Shown one piece after another: positions 4,229 through 57,842 of a DNA stretch of 64,000 nucleotides. This DNA comes from Spirochaetota bacterium. GTDB lineage: Bacteria > Spirochaetota > UBA4802 > UBA5550. Location: positions 190,077 to 254,076 of the forward strand of contig JAGNKX010000006.1 of the NCBI GenBank assembly GCA_017999915.1. Reading direction: 5' to 3'. The notes under the pieces are model-generated. The model saw only the letters and a list, made by a program, of their open reading frames with translations, ran no database searches and had not been told where the DNA came from. The position numbers and the translations under genes were made by a program. Position 1 is the stretch's first letter; each line of letters opens with the position of its first letter.

Positions 4229-5662
4229 ATGAAGCGTTATATGCGTATTTTTGGAATTTTGACGGTTGCGGCGGGATTGTTCTTTACCGCCTGTGAAAGT
4301 GGAAGCGGCGGCGGCGGGATATCGCCCTTCTTGGCCCTGTTTTTGAATGGCGGCGACAGCGGCCATAGTATCACCGCCTTCAGCTTCACCTCCGCGAAGA
4401 ATTTGGGGCTTTCGGCGGACGTTTCCGGTACCATCAGCGGCACGTCCATAGCGGTCACGGTCCCGTACGGCACCACGGTTACGGCCCTGAAGGCGACCTT
4501 CACCACGACCGGAAAGTCCGTTTCCGTCGGAGGTGCGGCCCAGACGAGCGGAGTCAGCGCCAACGATTTTACGGGTCCCGTGACCTACACGGTGACCGCG
4601 GCCGACGGCTCCACGCGGGATTATACGGTGACGGTGACGGTCGCGATAAACACCGCGAAGGAGATCACCGCCTTCGGATTTACATCGGCAAAGAACAGCG
4701 TTCTTTCCACCAATGTAACGGGCGCCATAACGGGAACCATCATTGCAGTTACGGTTCCCAACGGCACCGCCTCGATCGCGAACCTTATCGCGACATTTAC
4801 GACCACAGGAACGTCGGTGAAGATCGGAACCGTGGAACAGACGAGCGGAACCACGGCAAACGACTTCACGTCGGCGAAGATCTATACCGTGACCGCGGCC
4901 AACGGATCGACGCAGAGCTATACGGTCACGGTGACGGTCGCGTCGGCCAGCGCGAAGGAGATCACCGCCTTCAGCTTTCCGGTGGATACTAATGTTTATA
5001 ACCTCAATCATGAGTATGGGATCGATTTAGGTACTACTATCAGCGGTACGTCGATTACGGCAAAGCTCCCCTACGGTTCAACCCTGGTGGCGACCTTCGC
5101 GACAAGCGGAGCTTCCGTTACCGTGGGAGGGGTGGCCCAGGTGAGCGGAGTCACCTCCAATGATTTCACGAATCCGGTGACTTACCGGGTGACCGCGGCC
5201 GACGGTTCGTGGCAGGATTACACGGTGACGGTACTGTTCGCGCCGGCGCTCGGGTGTCCTACATTAGGTAAAGACAACTCATCCTACTGGGCAGGCGAGT
5301 TCAGCACAACTACGGATACAGACACCTTTGCCCTCGGATTGACCTGCGATGCCATCAACGCGGCCGCGGATCCTTATTACTTGTATATATTTATGAACGT
5401 CGGATTATTTTACAATCGAACGGCTCTTGAGACCTATGCCGCCGGGCTGGGCGCTACAGTAACCCCTATGAGTGATGAGAGAGTCCTTGAACTCACAGCT
5501 CCCTCGCTGGATGCGATGCAGAAAATCCTCGCGAGAATAGTGTATGTCCCACCCGGTGAGGCGGTGTTAGAGGATGGTCGTTTTTACATTCAGTTTAAGA
5601 ATAACAACAGCGGGCTTAGGGCCTCGGCGAGAATAAATATAACCGTCAACGCGCCGGAATGA
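4229..5662 (+). CDS. Lipoprotein with three DUF5018-like beta repeats
   Basis: The start at 4229 is chosen because it gives a signal peptide (MKRYMRIFGILTVAAGLFF) ending in the lipobox FTAC, with AGGGAG 10 bases upstream. A GTG at 4199 would only add ten residues. Three tandem repeats of about 90-100 residues follow a Gly/Ser linker. Each begins ITAF(S/G)F and ends YTVTV, with the internal motif ANDFT..(V/I)YTVTA(A/D)GS. They resemble DUF5018-like/immunoglobulin-type repeats of surface lipoproteins. The last about 130 residues (from LGCPTLGKD) form a separate domain I do not recognise. It is probably exported and lipid-anchored, with a likely surface or adhesive role. The high identity between repeats 1 and 2 at DNA level suggests recent duplication. 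Confidence 0.85.
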   Translation: MKRYMRIFGILTVAAGLFFTACESGSGGGGISPFLALFLNGGDSGHSITAFSFTSAKNLGLSADVSGTISGTSIAVTVPYGTTVTALKATFTTTGKSVSVGGAAQTSGVSANDFTGPVTYTVTAADGSTRDYTVTVTVAINTAKEITAFGFTSAKNSVLSTNVTGAITGTIIAVTVPNGTASIANLIATFTTTGTSVKIGTVEQTSGTTANDFTSAKIYTVTAANGSTQSYTVTVTVASASAKEITAFSFPVDTNVYNLNHEYGIDLGTTISGTSITAKLPYGSTLVATFATSGASVTVGGVAQVSGVTSNDFTNPVTYRVTAADGSWQDYTVTVLFAPALGCPTLGKDNSSYWAGEFSTTTDTDTFALGLTCDAINAAADPYYLYIFMNVGLFYNRTALETYAAGLGATVTPMSDERVLELTAPSLDAMQKILARIVYVPPGEAVLEDGRFYIQFKNNNSGLRASARINITVNAPE

Positions 5663-10367: not shown

Positions 10368-10477
10368 GGTAATAGCTCCAATGTAAAAAATTTACCAGAA
10401 TCAGGGCTTGTGAAAAGACAGGTTTGCTTGAAGATAATGAAACATCCTGCGAGATGACAGCATCCGCGGATCCCTAA

Positions 10478-10614
10478 TCTCTTCCATCCGGACTGTAACC
10501 GTCGGCTCCGGCATCTCACCGGATCTGCTGACCTTTCCTTCTAGTGGAAAGCGCTCGCGGGCTCCCCGGAAAATCCGGGATACCGCCGGTGGGGAATTTC
10601 ACCCCGCCCTGAGA
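10478..10614 (-). promoter_or_regulatory. FMN riboswitch (RFN element)
   Basis: On the minus strand the conserved RFN blocks appear in order: CAGGGCGGGGTGAAATTCCC, CACCGGCGGTA, AGCCCGCGAGC, GGTCAGCAGATCCGGTG and GACGGTTACAGTCC followed by GGATGGAAGAGA. About 110 nt of leader remain between it and ribB for the expression platform. I could not identify the terminator or anti-RBS stem with confidence. It is expected to lower ribB expression when FMN is abundant. Confidence 0.96.
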
Positions 10615-10700
10615 AATAGTGAATTTAGGAGGCGATCGATGGATATTTTTGTCAAGGTAATTTCTGGTGCGGGCTGTGCCGGATGATATGCTGAGGTCAG

Positions 10701-52221: not shown

Positions 52222-52656
52222 TTATGTCTGACCGATGGGGGTAGGGCTCGCCTGATCCTTGGCGTTTTTCATGAAAAAATAGCCGATACCCTGCGCGATC
52301 ATCAAAATAACGGACACGCACCACAGTGGCGCCATTCTCCCCAGGGAAATGCCGCCGGCCATATAGAAAGGAATGCCTGCCGCAATCAGTCCGGACAGAA
52401 GAGGAAACAGGGTTATGGGTATGATTCCCCTGCGTTCAATTGGATTGGCTGCCGCCCACAACAATATGCCCGTCCAGCCTGCCATGAGCGCGGCGCCGAC
52501 GTTCATCAGATACAGGGCCGTGGCATCCGGCGCAAAGTCATTGATGCCGATGACCATGCCCGCCAGCTTGGGGAACATCAGGGGTGGCACGAATAAGGCA
52601 TCCGCGACGGCGCCCGCTATAAATGTGATACGTACGAACAAAACTTTTTTATCCAT
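52222..52656 (-). CDS. Small four-helix membrane protein downstream of the MerB-like gene
   Basis: 144 residues from ATG at 52656, with GAGGGAAAG upstream; a start at 52689 would add 11 residues. Four hydrophobic segments: VRITFIAGAVADALFVPPLM, LMNVGAALMAGWTGILLWAA, PITLFPLLSGLIAAGIPFYM and PLWCVSVILMIAQGIGYFFM. No known family. The gene begins 45 bp after the MerB-like stop and shares its direction, so co-transcription is likely. A role in transport or sensing of the same substrate is only suggested by position. Confidence 0.7.
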   Translation of the reverse strand: MDKKVLFVRITFIAGAVADALFVPPLMFPKLAGMVIGINDFAPDATALYLMNVGAALMAGWTGILLWAAANPIERRGIIPITLFPLLSGLIAAGIPFYMAGGISLGRMAPLWCVSVILMIAQGIGYFFMKNAKDQASPTPIGQT

Positions 52657-52701
52657 GTTCTTTCCCTCTACAATAAAATCATTAACCATTCCATCAAATG
52701 A

Positions 52702-53463
52702 TCAGCCGCCCAGGGGGCAGCGGTTGAACTCAAAGGAAACCTCCTGGAAGAGCGGGGCCAGAAATGCGTTTTGCGCCAGGGTAAGGTACAAGCCTTTCTT
52801 TCCGCCATGTTGTTTTCGATGATTCCTTGCGTGTTCTTCTGACCAGAAGAAGACCGACTTCATTCAGAAATCATCGATGATGCTCGGCGCCTTCAGCCTG
52901 GAGAAATCGACCATGGGGATAAAGAAGACAGGGTCCGACGTTTCGTCTTCCAGGATGAAGCTCAAGTCGCTGTTCATCCGGAACCTGATCTCCCTGCCGC
53001 AGCAGGCGCACTCTGTCCTGATATTGAAGGTAAGGGATTCACCGCGTAAACGTCCTTGCACGAAGGGCGTTGCGACCGCGTCCGTCGCTCAGGCGGCCCC
53101 GATGGACTCCCCGGTGGAAAATTCGACCCGGTGCGGGGTGGGCGCCACGGTCACCGGGTACGCCCACTCGACGTCCCTCCCGCCGGGGCGGAATAAAAAG
53201 AGCTTGCGGCGCTCGAGCTCGTTCATGATCGACACGACATGACTGGCATCCATGCCGAGCCCGCGGGCGACGAAATCGGGACCCATCGGCCGCGCGTATC
53301 CCGGCAGCTCCCGGACCACGAAGTGGTGCACCTTCCGCTGGTCCCCGTCAAGATGGCCGAAGGTCACCCTGTTCTTCGACGCTTCTTTGGACGCCATTAT
53401 CCTGAAGAGGCCCCAGGGGACGGGAACCATGTATCGCCCATGGCCGAACAGAATTCGTTTCAT
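52702..53463 (-). CDS. MerB-like (SaoL-type) organometal lyase with two selenocysteines
   Basis: One frame runs from ATG 53463 (AAGGAG upstream) to TGA 52702, 253 residues, with two in-frame TGA codons at 53091-53089 (residue 125) and 52866-52864 (residue 200). The winged-helix N-terminus and the core match alkylmercury lyase. IGAA-U-ATDAVATPFVQGR aligns with YAW-C96-ALD99-TLIFPALIGR of MerB; TECACCG aligns with its Cys117 region; DDF-U-MKSVFF aligns with SF-C159-CHVHFF, and the end EFNRCP with EFNRHL. Both catalytic cysteines are thus TGA, and Asp99 is kept. Each TGA has a SECIS-like hairpin (see below). The protein likely cleaves a carbon-metal or carbon-metalloid bond. I recall SaoL selenoproteins of a proposed organometal (SAO) system as the closest named group, unchecked. 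The cellular Sec machinery is not in the window. Confidence 0.9.
52834..52851 (-). promoter_or_regulatory. SECIS-like hairpin after the second TGA
   Basis: On the mRNA, UUCUUCU-GGUC-AGAAGAA is a 7-bp stem with loop GGUC; two more pairs (UG/CA-type, beyond a C-C mismatch) extend it. The loop begins at nucleotide 23 counted from U of UGA. E. coli fdhF has GGUC at 22-25, the G and U bases bound by SelB. This is a strong bacterial SECIS match. Confidence 0.88.
53049..53071 (-). promoter_or_regulatory. SECIS-like hairpin after the first TGA
   Basis: On the mRNA AACG-C-CCUU / AAGG-A-CGUU forms eight pairs with one C-A mismatch and the five-base loop CGUGC, which has GU at its second and third positions. 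The loop starts at nucleotide 30 from the U of UGA, inside the 16-37 window usual for bacterial SECIS elements. Confidence 0.75.
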
Positions 53464-53490
53464 GAGATTCTCCTTGATCATTGAATTATG

Positions 53491-53543
53491 TTTAGATACT
53501 AAACAGATAATTATAATTTAGCATCTAAACGGCAAATCGTCAA
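53491..53543 (-). promoter_or_regulatory. Promoter of the MerB-like gene with two MarR-type operators
   Basis: On the minus strand TTGACG (53543-53538), 17-bp spacer, TAAATT (53520-53515). Two palindromes TTTAG-N3-CTAAA lie at 53517-53529 (over the spacer and -10) and 53491-53503 (downstream of the start site), 26 bp apart centre to centre. The 5-3-5 plan equals that of the other MarR site at 14749-14761. The neighbouring MarR protein is the obvious candidate repressor. Confidence 0.72.
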
Positions 53544-53646: not shown

Positions 53647-54099
53647 TTACGTATGGCCGTTTGTTAATTGTGCTTCTATATAATTCAAAAAATCGCCGAT
53701 GACTTTACGGTCCCGTTCCGGAAGGGAAGTCAAATATGAGTTAAATCGCCTGGATATGCCTTCTTGAATTTTTTTGCATTGCTTATATACGTTTTTGCCT
53801 GGATCGGTTAATATGATCGCCAGGTCATTGTTGTCGGGATTTTTTTTCTTTTTCAGGATCCCTTTCTTGACAAGGCGGGAAATGGTCTGCGATACGGCCC
53901 CCTTGGTCACGCCCAGCTGCCTGACAATGGTGCCGTAGCTTTCTTCTTTCCCATTGGATATCATCAAGATGAGATGTATTTCAGAAGGAAACAATTTTAG
54001 ATCATCGCCGTATGTCAGGACTGTGCTTTTCTCGTTAAAAATTATCTGATTGATGATACGTATAAATTGATCGGTGCTGGCTTCACTATGTTTTGTCAT
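53647..54099 (-). CDS. MarR-family regulator next to the MerB-like gene
   Basis: 150 residues. Winged helix: FPSEIHLILMISNGKEESYG, TIVRQLGVTKGAVSQTISRL with recognition helix and the wing KKKKNPDNNDLAIILTDPGK. The fold and length are those of MarR repressors, which release DNA on binding a small ligand. It is separated from the MerB-like gene by 183 bp that hold the promoter with two dyads, so it probably controls that gene and may sense the metal compound or its product. It has its own promoter (TTGACT-17-AATAAT near 54170). Confidence 0.88.
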   Translation of the reverse strand: MTKHSEASTDQFIRIINQIIFNEKSTVLTYGDDLKLFPSEIHLILMISNGKEESYGTIVRQLGVTKGAVSQTISRLVKKGILKKKKNPDNNDLAIILTDPGKNVYKQCKKIQEGISRRFNSYLTSLPERDRKVIGDFLNYIEAQLTNGHT

Positions 54100-54261: not shown

Positions 54262-55266
54262 TCAAGCCTGCGGAAGCCGGTCCTGCGCTATTTTATTGCC
54301 CGCACCGGCCACAGCCGGTATTCCATAGGATTGCATGTGTTCAGCGATACGCTTAATGTTCTGTTCCCAGATCGTCCTTTCCGGGGGGGTGAAGTAATTC
54401 ATCGGATATTCCCTGCCCAGTGACTTGTATTTCTCCACGCCCAGCTGTCTGTAAGGGAGCAGCTGGACCTGCATGACGCGGTTGCCGAGGTCACCCATGA
54501 TAAAATCCGCGGTGGCGCTGATATTTTCATCGCCGTCGTTAAGCCCGGCGATGACCGGAACGCGGATGATGAGGGGCTTGTTCGCCTTCGCCGCTGCCGT
54601 AATATTTTCCAGAATGCGCTCATTGCCGACGCCCGTATATTCCCTGTGCTTTTCCGAATCCATATGCTTGATGTCGGTTATGATCATGTCCGGGAGCGGA
54701 AGGATCTCGCTCACTATCTCTTGTGCGGCGTGAAGGGAGGATTCGACGCAGGTATGGATGCCGCGGCCCCGGCATTCTTTCAGGATCTCGGCCGTGAACC
54801 GCCACTGCGCCAGCGGCTCACCGCCGGAGATCGTCACGCCTCCGCCCGACTTTTTGTAAAAATCGATGTCGGACAGGATAGCCTTCATGACTTCGGGCAC
54901 CGTCATCTTTTTGCCCCACACCGTCAGGGCCCCGGAGGGGCAGGCGTCGGCGCATGCAAGGCACCCGGCGCACTTTTCCCGGTCAATCCCCGTTATGGCG
55001 GTACCGTCGGTCAGGAGCGCGCCCTTTCCTGATTCCGAACACGCCTTGACGCAGTAGCCGCATTGGGCGACGCCGATGCAGCGTTTGGAATAGACGCCCA
55101 CCTCGGGATTCGGTCCCATGCTCTCGGGATTGCTGCACCAGCGGCAGCGCAGGGGGCATCCCTTTAAAAAGATTTCCGTCCGTATGCCGGGCCCGTCATG
55201 AATGGTATACCGCTGTATGTCGAAGACCAATCCCTCGCCGCGGGCGTTTGCGCTTTCGGATTTCAT
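54262..55266 (-). CDS. Glycyl radical enzyme-activating protein (radical SAM)
   Basis: 334 residues from ATG at 55266, 7 bases after GGAAGGAAG. An alternative TTG start at 55293 overlaps the upstream stop. The radical SAM cysteines are in [18 protein letters not shown] (CxxxCxxC). The 2[4Fe-4S] insert typical of this class is [20 protein letters not shown] and [29 protein letters not shown] is the SAM-binding GGE motif. It abstracts hydrogen from the glycine of the partner enzyme to give the glycyl radical. It lies 23 bp downstream of the GRE gene. The extra ferredoxin-like insert matches activases of GD/BSS-type enzymes. Confidence 0.95.
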
Positions 55267-55289
55267 AAAGGGCTTCCTTCCCGCGCTTG

Positions 55290-57842
55290 TCAATCGAAGG
55301 AGAGCTCGGTCCTTCCCATGATATCGTACTGCAGGGGCTTTGAGAGTTCCACGAAGATGGCGCTGTATCCGGCGACGCGCACCACCATGTCCCGGTAGTT
55401 TTCCGGGTGCTTCATGGCGTCCTCAAGGGTCTCCCGGCTTATTATGTTGAACTGGCAGTGCATCCCCTTCCGGTCGAAGTAGGATTCTATCAGGGAGATG
55501 AAATTATCCCTGCCGGAATCTCCCGATACGGCCGAAGGCGAGAACTTCATGTTGAGCAGCGTGCCGTTCCCCGCCCGTATGTGATCGAGCTTCGCCACCG
55601 ATTTGATCATCGCCGTGGGACCGCTTACGTCGTGGGACCTGATCTGGGTGTGGACGGCGCCGAGGCAGTCCGAGACAGGCTCAAGGGCCTTGCGTCCTTC
55701 CGGCGAGGCCCATTGCACCAGCCCGAGGGCGACATTGGCGGAAACCGAGTAGACCCCCGGAAGGTATATCCCGCCCCGCGCGTTGGGCCTGTTCTCGACA
55801 TGCTTGCAGTAGGTGTCCGAAGCGAATCGCGCCAGGCTGTCCGCGTAGTCGTCGTCGTTCCCGTAATGATGGACCCTGTCGCTGTTCACCAGCGCGTAGA
55901 GCGGCTCGTTGCCCGTCCAGTTCTGCTCGCAGGCGTCGAGGAGCTTCCTGCCGCTGACCTTCTTCTCGTCAAAAACGAGCTGCTTGATGGTCGACAATCC
56001 GTCCGCCACGGCGCCGACTCCCACGGCCTGGGGCCCGGTGAAATTATAATGCGCTCCCCCCGCCGTGACATCCACGCCCCGGTCGATGCAGTCGTCCATC
56101 AGCGCCGAGAGGTAGGGAAGGGGCTTCAATTCCCGGTGCGCCCCGTCCATGATCTCGATGCCGGCGATCATCAGGTCGACCCAGTATTTCATCTGTTTAT
56201 CATATGACTCGAGCACCTGGTCAAACGAGGTGAAATCCGCGAGGCTCCCGGTTTCCGGTCCCAGGCGCTTTCCCGCGCCGCCGCACCGGTCCCAGCGCAT
56301 GCAGTGGGAGCCGCAGCCGATGCAGCGGCCGTCGTTGATCGCCAGCTCCAGGACCTTGGCTATGCTGAAATAGGCGGCGTCGTGCCAGCCGTATTCCCTG
56401 CCGCCGGCGTCGATCTCGACGCACCCGACCACGTGGTAATTCCTGGAATCCTCAAGGGTCCTGCCCGCCCGCAGAGAAGCCGGTATGGCGGCCTGGTCGT
56501 TGAAAATCTTGGGCTGGCCCGTGCCGATGCGTATGACGTTGGCGGTTTTTACCTTCAGCTCCCGCGGCGTGTTCTCGTGCCACCGCACCGCCAGCCAGGG
56601 AGTGCCCCACCGGGTATGGGCAAGGGCGTCAAGGCACATGTAGGTCAGGTCGTTGGTGGCGTCCTTTCCTTCCCTGTCGACGCCGCCGATCGTCAGCGAA
56701 TCCCCGCCCATTCCCCTGCCAGAATTGGCTATGACGGTCATCCTGTCGCGGAGCTTCGTCCACCAGATGTCCTTCATGTAGAGTATCTCGATCAGCTCCT
56801 GTATCCATTCCCGGGTCGCCGCGCCGGACCTGGTGTCGGCGTCGTAGAACGGGAGCATGTACTGGTCGAAGCGGCCGAAGGAAACGGAATGGCCGTTCGT
56901 TTCGATGAGTGTTATGGTCGTGGCCATGAACATCAGCTGAAGGACCTCCCAGAAGGTGCGCGGACTGTTCTCCGATACCCATTCGCAATTGTCCGCGATT
57001 TTAGGAAGAAGCTTCCGCCACTCCGGGTCCTTTTCCTTTTTCGCCAGGCTCCGGGCGAGGGCGGCGTAGCGCCGCAGGTAATCGCTCGCGGCGTCCAGGA
57101 CTATCAGCTCGGCCTCGTAAAAGTCGCGCTTGCCGCTGTTCCCGGGATCGTTCGCGTCCAGCTCCTCCATCTTCTTCCTGGCCGCTTCCTTGAGGCCGCC
57201 GTATCCCAGGGCGAAGAGCTTTTCATAGTTCAGCTGGAGATGGCCGATGCCGGCGAACATGTAAAGGTTCAGGAGGAAGAGGTTGCGCTCCAGGTTGCTT
57301 CCCTTCTTCTCGTCGTCGGTCATGCGGGACGCTATGGCTTCATCGATGCTTTTGCCCTTCCAGAAGCTTTCGATTCCGAAGAGCTTTTTCCTGGATTCTT
57401 TGGTCATGTAATATTCGTCATGGAGCCTCTTGTCCCAGGGGTGATTCTTCATCTCGTCGACGATCCAGCCATAGGAATGCTCGGGAAAGATGGGGGCTGA
57501 TTTCATCGGCGCCGCCATCTCGCCGACGATGAGCTCGTCGGGAAGGATGCGTATGGTGACGTTGCGGAGCACGTGGGCCAGGGCGTGGGCGCACTTGAGT
57601 ATCTGCGGGGAGCCGCGATATTTTTCATAGGCCTCGGTCACAAGGCAGGCCCGTTCATGGTCGACGGTGAATTTGCTGTCCAGTATGAACCTGCGGAACC
57701 GGTTCACGCGGGGAAAGGGCGAATGGGAGTCACCCATGGCGTTGGCCCCCACTCCCCAGTCCCTGTCGGTCGGTTCCACGGGCAGGGGCCTTATCGCCGG
57801 CTCCGCCATTTTTTTTGCCGATTGTGCCATTGCGGTTTGCAT
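55290..57842 (-). CDS. Glycyl radical enzyme of unassigned substrate
   Basis: 850 residues with GAGGAGG before the ATG. Active site: thiyl Cys474 and Glu476 in [20 protein letters not shown]; glycyl radical Gly825 in [10 protein letters not shown]. Length and GCVE motif fit the PFL2-type family (diol dehydratases, C-S and C-N lyases, arylacetate decarboxylases), but the residue after GCVE is Ile, not the Pro common in diol dehydratases and choline lyase. An unusual cysteine-rich insert follows at 507-520 ([15 protein letters not shown]). The neighbours are an SCP2-type carrier and a TetR repressor, pointing to a hydrophobic substrate. It requires strict anoxia. The reaction remains unknown. 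Confidence 0.93.

Follow-up and report, generated by a model that had tools for sequence, protein, structure and literature searches.

MerB is the standard enzyme of methylmercury breakdown. Metal binding and the proton relay in MerB are the work of residues such as Cys96, Cys159 and Asp99 (PMC4525700; PMC8261052), and the two catalytic cysteines have been described as strictly conserved (PMC8261052). One variant of the MerB fold is a selenoprotein. SaoL (NF040728) has selenocysteine (Sec) at the position of Cys159, with a hairpin approximately 19 nt after the corresponding UGA, and retains a cysteine at position 96 (the arrangement given as 'CU' in PMC13188914). A review from May 2026, which covers 119 families of prokaryotic selenoproteins, has SaoL, with its single Sec, as its sole MerB-like entry (PMC13188914). 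Two Sec residues are on record in a prokaryotic selenoprotein with a link to metals, the metal-binding, putative mercuric reductase-like NF041115 (PMC13188914). That protein belongs to a different family and its Sec pair forms a UxxU motif, whereas the two Sec residues of the protein described here are 75 residues apart; no direct comparison of the two was made. The present gene has UGA codons in place of both catalytic cysteines of MerB. A two-Sec MerB-like protein is apparently undescribed; an earlier mention in the primary papers on the SAO system cannot be excluded.

The gene lies at 52702..53463 on the minus strand of the window, by which we mean the whole stretch of 64,000 nucleotides, from an uncultured spirochaete, that was analysed. 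Its translation begins MKRILF, an AAGGAG ribosome-binding site is located immediately 5' of the ATG, and a third TGA closes the frame. The original prediction held that a single minus-strand frame has TGA at residues 125 and 200, that these fall on Cys96 and Cys159 of MerB with Asp99 retained at the +3 position, and that the same fold continues beyond each TGA as far as an EFNR segment. The frame was confirmed as 253 codons (53463..52702), with TGA at codon 125 (53089..53091, minus strand) and at codon 200 (52864..52866, minus strand). The Pfam MerB profile (PF03243) scores 50.6 bits against a cut-off of 27, with a match from residue 105 to residue 233 that runs through both TGAs; the EFNR segment is outside the matched part, yet it is conserved in the orthologue discussed below. 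We aligned the two-Sec proteins and SaoL with five annotated plasmid MerB-family proteins, all of them Cys forms (Microvirga, Pseudomonas K-62, Listeria, Enterococcus MerB3 and Sphingomonas). The placement of the TGAs was borne out, with codon 125 in the column of Cys96 and codon 200 in that of Cys159, and the window protein keeps both Asp99 (U-A-T-D) and Cys117 (E-C-A-C-C). The canonical MerB signature of Cys96 and Cys159, as used in PMC8261052, is absent from the window protein, both positions being in-frame TGA. Unrelated residues at these positions among homologues would have refuted the prediction; the homologues aligned have Cys or Sec, and nothing else, at both. We infer that Sec at the two positions is chemically equivalent to the cysteine pair of MerB.

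The fold was assessed with an AlphaFold2 model of the window protein, which was of moderate confidence (pLDDT 67, pTM 0.70). The model superimposed on MerB2 (5c17) with a Z score of 20.5 over 205 residues and on MerB (3f0o) with a Z score of 18.2 over 208 residues, and its eleven best Foldseek matches were all MerB. The MerB scores were far above those of all other folds, and, within the moderate confidence of the model, the window protein is predicted to have the MerB fold. Besides the fold, it has in common with MerB (PF03243; 3f0o, 5c17) the N-terminal winged-helix part, Cys117, Asp99 and an FF-S segment that follows the second catalytic position. It differs in its UGA codons at the catalytic cysteines, in its low identity (approximately 15-20%) to the solved MerBs, in having a MarR-type rather than a MerR-type neighbour, and in the lack of a MerA partner above the cut-off.

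The gene for this MarR-family regulator (53647..54099, minus strand) lies directly upstream of the two-Sec gene, on the same strand. The arrangement recurs in G097, the second genome of the same genus ('uncultured Spirochaetes bacterium'), where a MarR gene (locus L022, 5391-5840, plus strand) is directly upstream of the orthologue, again on the same strand. The gap between the MarR and two-Sec genes is poorly conserved between the two genomes except for one nearly identical block. This block contains a promoter-like site, TTGACG-17-TAAATT (53515..53543, minus strand), conserved in the orthologue and recognized by consensus match only, together with GTTTAG-n3-CTAAA and the palindrome TGTTTAGTATCTAAACA. 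We predict two operators within it. Operator 1 (53516..53530, minus strand; GTTTAGATGCTAAAT) overlaps the promoter spacer and the -10 element, and Operator 2 (53489..53505, minus strand) is the perfect palindrome TGTTTAGTATCTAAACA, which the orthologue conserves. Throughout the 5.45-Mb genome of the window (G000), the pattern GTTTAGnnnCTAAA is found solely at the two operator sites. The MarR protein is likely a dedicated local repressor of the two-Sec gene; the binding of repressor to operator is inferred. G097 has one additional GTTTAGnnnCTAAA site, at position 4834 of locus L074, where it separates a second MarR-like gene from an alpha/beta-hydrolase-like gene.

We propose that the locus encodes a MarR-controlled, two-Sec organometal lyase, probably an organomercurial lyase, and we place the probability of this reading at roughly two in three. 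It is founded on features that were observed, namely UGAs conserved at the catalytic positions, coding constraint, the Sec machinery of the genome, the MerB fold and a conserved regulator with its operator, and it extends to Sec insertion, substrate and catalysis by inference. In such an enzyme, the selenolates of Sec125 (Cys96 in MerB) and Sec200 (Cys159) would hold an organometal ion by its metal, and the retained Asp99 would, as it does in MerB, relay the proton needed to cleave the metal-carbon bond. The substrate would most likely be an organomercurial such as methylmercury. The MarR-type repressor would probably hold the two palindromes over the promoter, and release them when the substrate is present. 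Release of the metal would have to take place without MerA, which is again an inference.

The choice of methylmercury draws on the genomic context. The genome of the window encodes HgcA (397 bits, cut-off 275) with the motif INVWCAAGK, and an hgcB-like ferredoxin gene adjoins hgcA (contig 1, region 86383-87360; locus L073, 4192-5687). The organism is thus a predicted mercury methylator, and methylmercury could plausibly serve as an internal substrate. A small number of genomes are reported to combine hgcAB with merB (PMC9948709). About half of the order carries hgcA (21 of 45 genomes), as do two of the four genomes with the two-Sec form, and for this reason we claim no enrichment and no link beyond co-occurrence.

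The same context leaves room for a protein that acts on some other organometal or metalloid (organotin, organoarsenic or organolead), or one that binds or scavenges metal and is not a lyase. The genome has no MerA above the cut-off (the best match, at 271 bits against 454, sits among genes resembling glycine-cleavage and lipoate genes), and neither merR nor merT adjoins the two-Sec gene, whose neighbors according to Pfam and NCBIfam are MarR and unrelated genes. The distance from the solved MerBs points the same way, as does the residue at position 99, which is Glu and not Asp in two distant relatives of the protein (G158 and G127), and the other Sec form, SaoL, is itself named only 'organometallic' (PMC13188914). 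This possibility is nevertheless met by the retention of all catalytic positions in the window protein, Asp99 and Cys117 included, and by the presence of hgcAB, and we consider it unlikely without being able to set it aside. The organomercurial lyase reading has difficulties of its own apart from the missing mer genes: there is no biochemical evidence for it, the first UGA has only weak evidence for a SECIS element, and Hg(II) might be bound by a bis-selenolate so tightly that turnover fails.

Every form of this proposal requires that UGA be decoded as Sec at both positions. We infer actual insertion of Sec with high confidence, and the two-Sec reading of the gene rests on the MerB profile, the alignment, the orthologue and dN/dS. 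The orthologue in G097 (L022) is 81% identical and has both TGAs. Between the two genes, dN/dS is approximately 0.19 upstream of the first TGA, 0.13 from the first TGA to the second and 0.03 beyond the second (dN of 0.17, 0.10 and 0.06 against dS of 0.91, 0.76 and 1.78, respectively). The low ratio in all three segments indicates that protein-level selection continues beyond both TGAs. When 393 genomes of the phylum were scanned for MerB, two further two-TGA genes came to light, in G158 (L037) and G127 (L041), which represent two additional families within the order. Their proteins are only approximately 25% identical to the window protein, and their TGAs occupy the same two alignment positions; the stretches in G127 read QUAFESL and YSUSTMNFF. 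In total, the two-Sec form is present in 4 of the 46 genomes of the order that were scanned. Relatives outside the phylum were sought by a single close-range scan only.

The machinery for Sec is complete in the genome of the window. SelA (486.9 bits, cut-off 268), SelB (304.9 bits, cut-off 242), SelD (371.8 bits, cut-off 125) and tRNA-Sec, the product of selC (72.5 bits, cut-off 47), all exceed their thresholds, as the original prediction required. The genes selC, selA and selB stand in a row on the same strand of contig 1, and SelD is itself a selenoprotein, with an in-frame TGA within an SGUAAK stretch. SelA is found in all four two-Sec genomes, and also in most of the order. A reassigned code was considered and ruled out. 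TGA terminates 27 of the 52 long open reading frames of the window, where it is the commonest stop, and the genetic code has thus not simply changed. What remains is the possibility that translation truly ends at the UGA codons 125 and 200, or that they specify another amino acid, in a gene that has decayed or that yields a 124-residue fragment. The weak SECIS evidence at the first UGA is compatible with it, and so is the location of the gene outside any operon with known Sec genes. It has no ready answer to the retention of both TGAs in another species and in two distant relatives, to a dN/dS that is lowest after the second TGA, or to a full Sec machinery in a genome where TGA is an ordinary stop elsewhere, and it is largely refuted already by conservation. 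We regard it as very improbable. The earlier contention that this is no decayed gene is upheld by the orthologue and by the purifying selection in all three segments, and a sequencing error, which might have removed either TGA, is excluded together with decay, given the recurrence of both TGAs in other assemblies.

With Sec decoding as the preferred reading, we looked for SECIS-like hairpins after each UGA. A hairpin follows the second UGA at 52834..52851 (minus strand; UUCUUCU-GGUC-AGAAGAA), with a loop that starts 19 nt after the codon. Its 7-pair stem, of the form UUCUUC[U/C]-GGUC-[A/G]GAAGAA, is possible in all four two-Sec genes, closed by a U-A pair in the window gene and G097 and by a C-G pair in G158 and G127. 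Hairpins with a GGUC loop and a stem of at least seven pairs are rare in the window, with three occurrences. Most of the stem follows from the encoded FFxSEE (FFWSEE in the window protein). Its bases encode the FF and EE residues, so that peptide and hairpin constrain one another, and in synonymous shuffles the hairpin is not rare given the encoded peptide. After the first UGA we note an uncertain candidate at 53050..53070 (minus strand; ACGCCCUU-CGUGC-AAGGACGU), with a loop that starts 26 nt after the codon. The core of this hairpin, CCUU-CGUGC-AAGG, is possible at 26 nt in the window gene and in G097; G158 and G127 have instead a GCUGGC hairpin at 17-18 nt. Synonymous shuffles gave it modest support (p approximately 0.04 for the window gene and 0.09 for the orthologue). 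Downstream of the first UGA lies the longest stretch of the gene in which synonymous codons are unchanged, but its length is not significant (p = 0.21), and hairpin energies showed no excess over synonymous shuffles for either UGA. Because of these hairpin shapes, the constraint from the peptide, the modest shuffle support and the null energies, we hold that the SECIS evidence lends support at the second UGA and is weak at the first, where the matter remains open.

The statement in the original prediction that SaoL is a MerB-like selenoprotein holds insofar as SaoL is a relative with a single Sec at position 159; it does not extend to position 96, which is Cys in SaoL, and the window protein falls outside the SaoL family. 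That the window protein is simply a SaoL of an SAO system is hardly credible: SaoL is its best NCBIfam match and resembles it in having Sec in place of Cys159 and a hairpin equally far from that UGA, but the window protein scores 38.6 bits (39.8-43.8 for the other three two-Sec proteins), far below the cut-off of 140 and the 181 and 175 bits of SaoL-type proteins of the same phylum (G118 and G034, in which position 96 is Cys and position 159 is Sec), the tree does not group the four two-Sec proteins with SaoL, and no SAO genes were found by Pfam and NCBIfam among the immediate neighbors, to which that search was confined. The SaoL proteins of the phylum, which carry Sec at 159, do indicate that the family already tolerates Sec at this position.

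The tree of 14 rows bears on how the two-Sec arrangement arose. G127 encodes, besides its two-Sec protein, a Cys/Cys paralogue, which clusters with the two-Sec proteins of G158 and G127. This MerB-like paralogue (L044, 7281-8807) lies directly after a flavodoxin-like gene. A single clade of all four two-Sec proteins, and with it one origin, was rejected by the AU test (p-AU 0.009), subject to long branches and few rows. As judged from these sequences, the tree suggests repeated switches between Cys and Sec, each involving both positions at once. No fewer than three other genomes of the order share the arrangement, which is a real and apparently undescribed form of a known family of enzymes. 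A wider proposition, that mercury-methylating spirochaetes own a MarR-switched, two-selenolate organomercurial lyase that operates without MerA, and that the paired Cys-to-Sec change has arisen at least twice in the MerB family, is one we advance only tentatively and would not yet bet on. Strict conservation is ascribed to the catalytic cysteines of MerB (PMC8261052), so a survey that filters on Cys96 and Cys159 would overlook two-Sec genes or score them as broken. The occurrence of such a gene in a genome with hgcAB bears on the question of how methylmercury producers handle their own product. Natural selenium at both metal-binding positions also offers a direct test of the effect of selenolates on metal-carbon cleavage and on metal release.

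Several further features were recorded. G158 has a weak match to the HgcA model (contig C482, 458-844; 65 bits, below the cut-off) with one in-frame TGA. Downstream of the two-Sec gene, at 52222-52689 (minus strand), is a membrane-protein-like open reading frame of 155 residues without a Pfam or NCBIfam match, which is not found beside the orthologue in L022. A glycyl radical enzyme is encoded at 54262-57842 (minus strand), with 1123 bits on the (2S)-3-sulfopropanediol dehydratase model (cut-off 1000) and an adjoining activating enzyme. An FMN riboswitch (111.6 bits) is located at 10472-10620 (minus strand) of the window.
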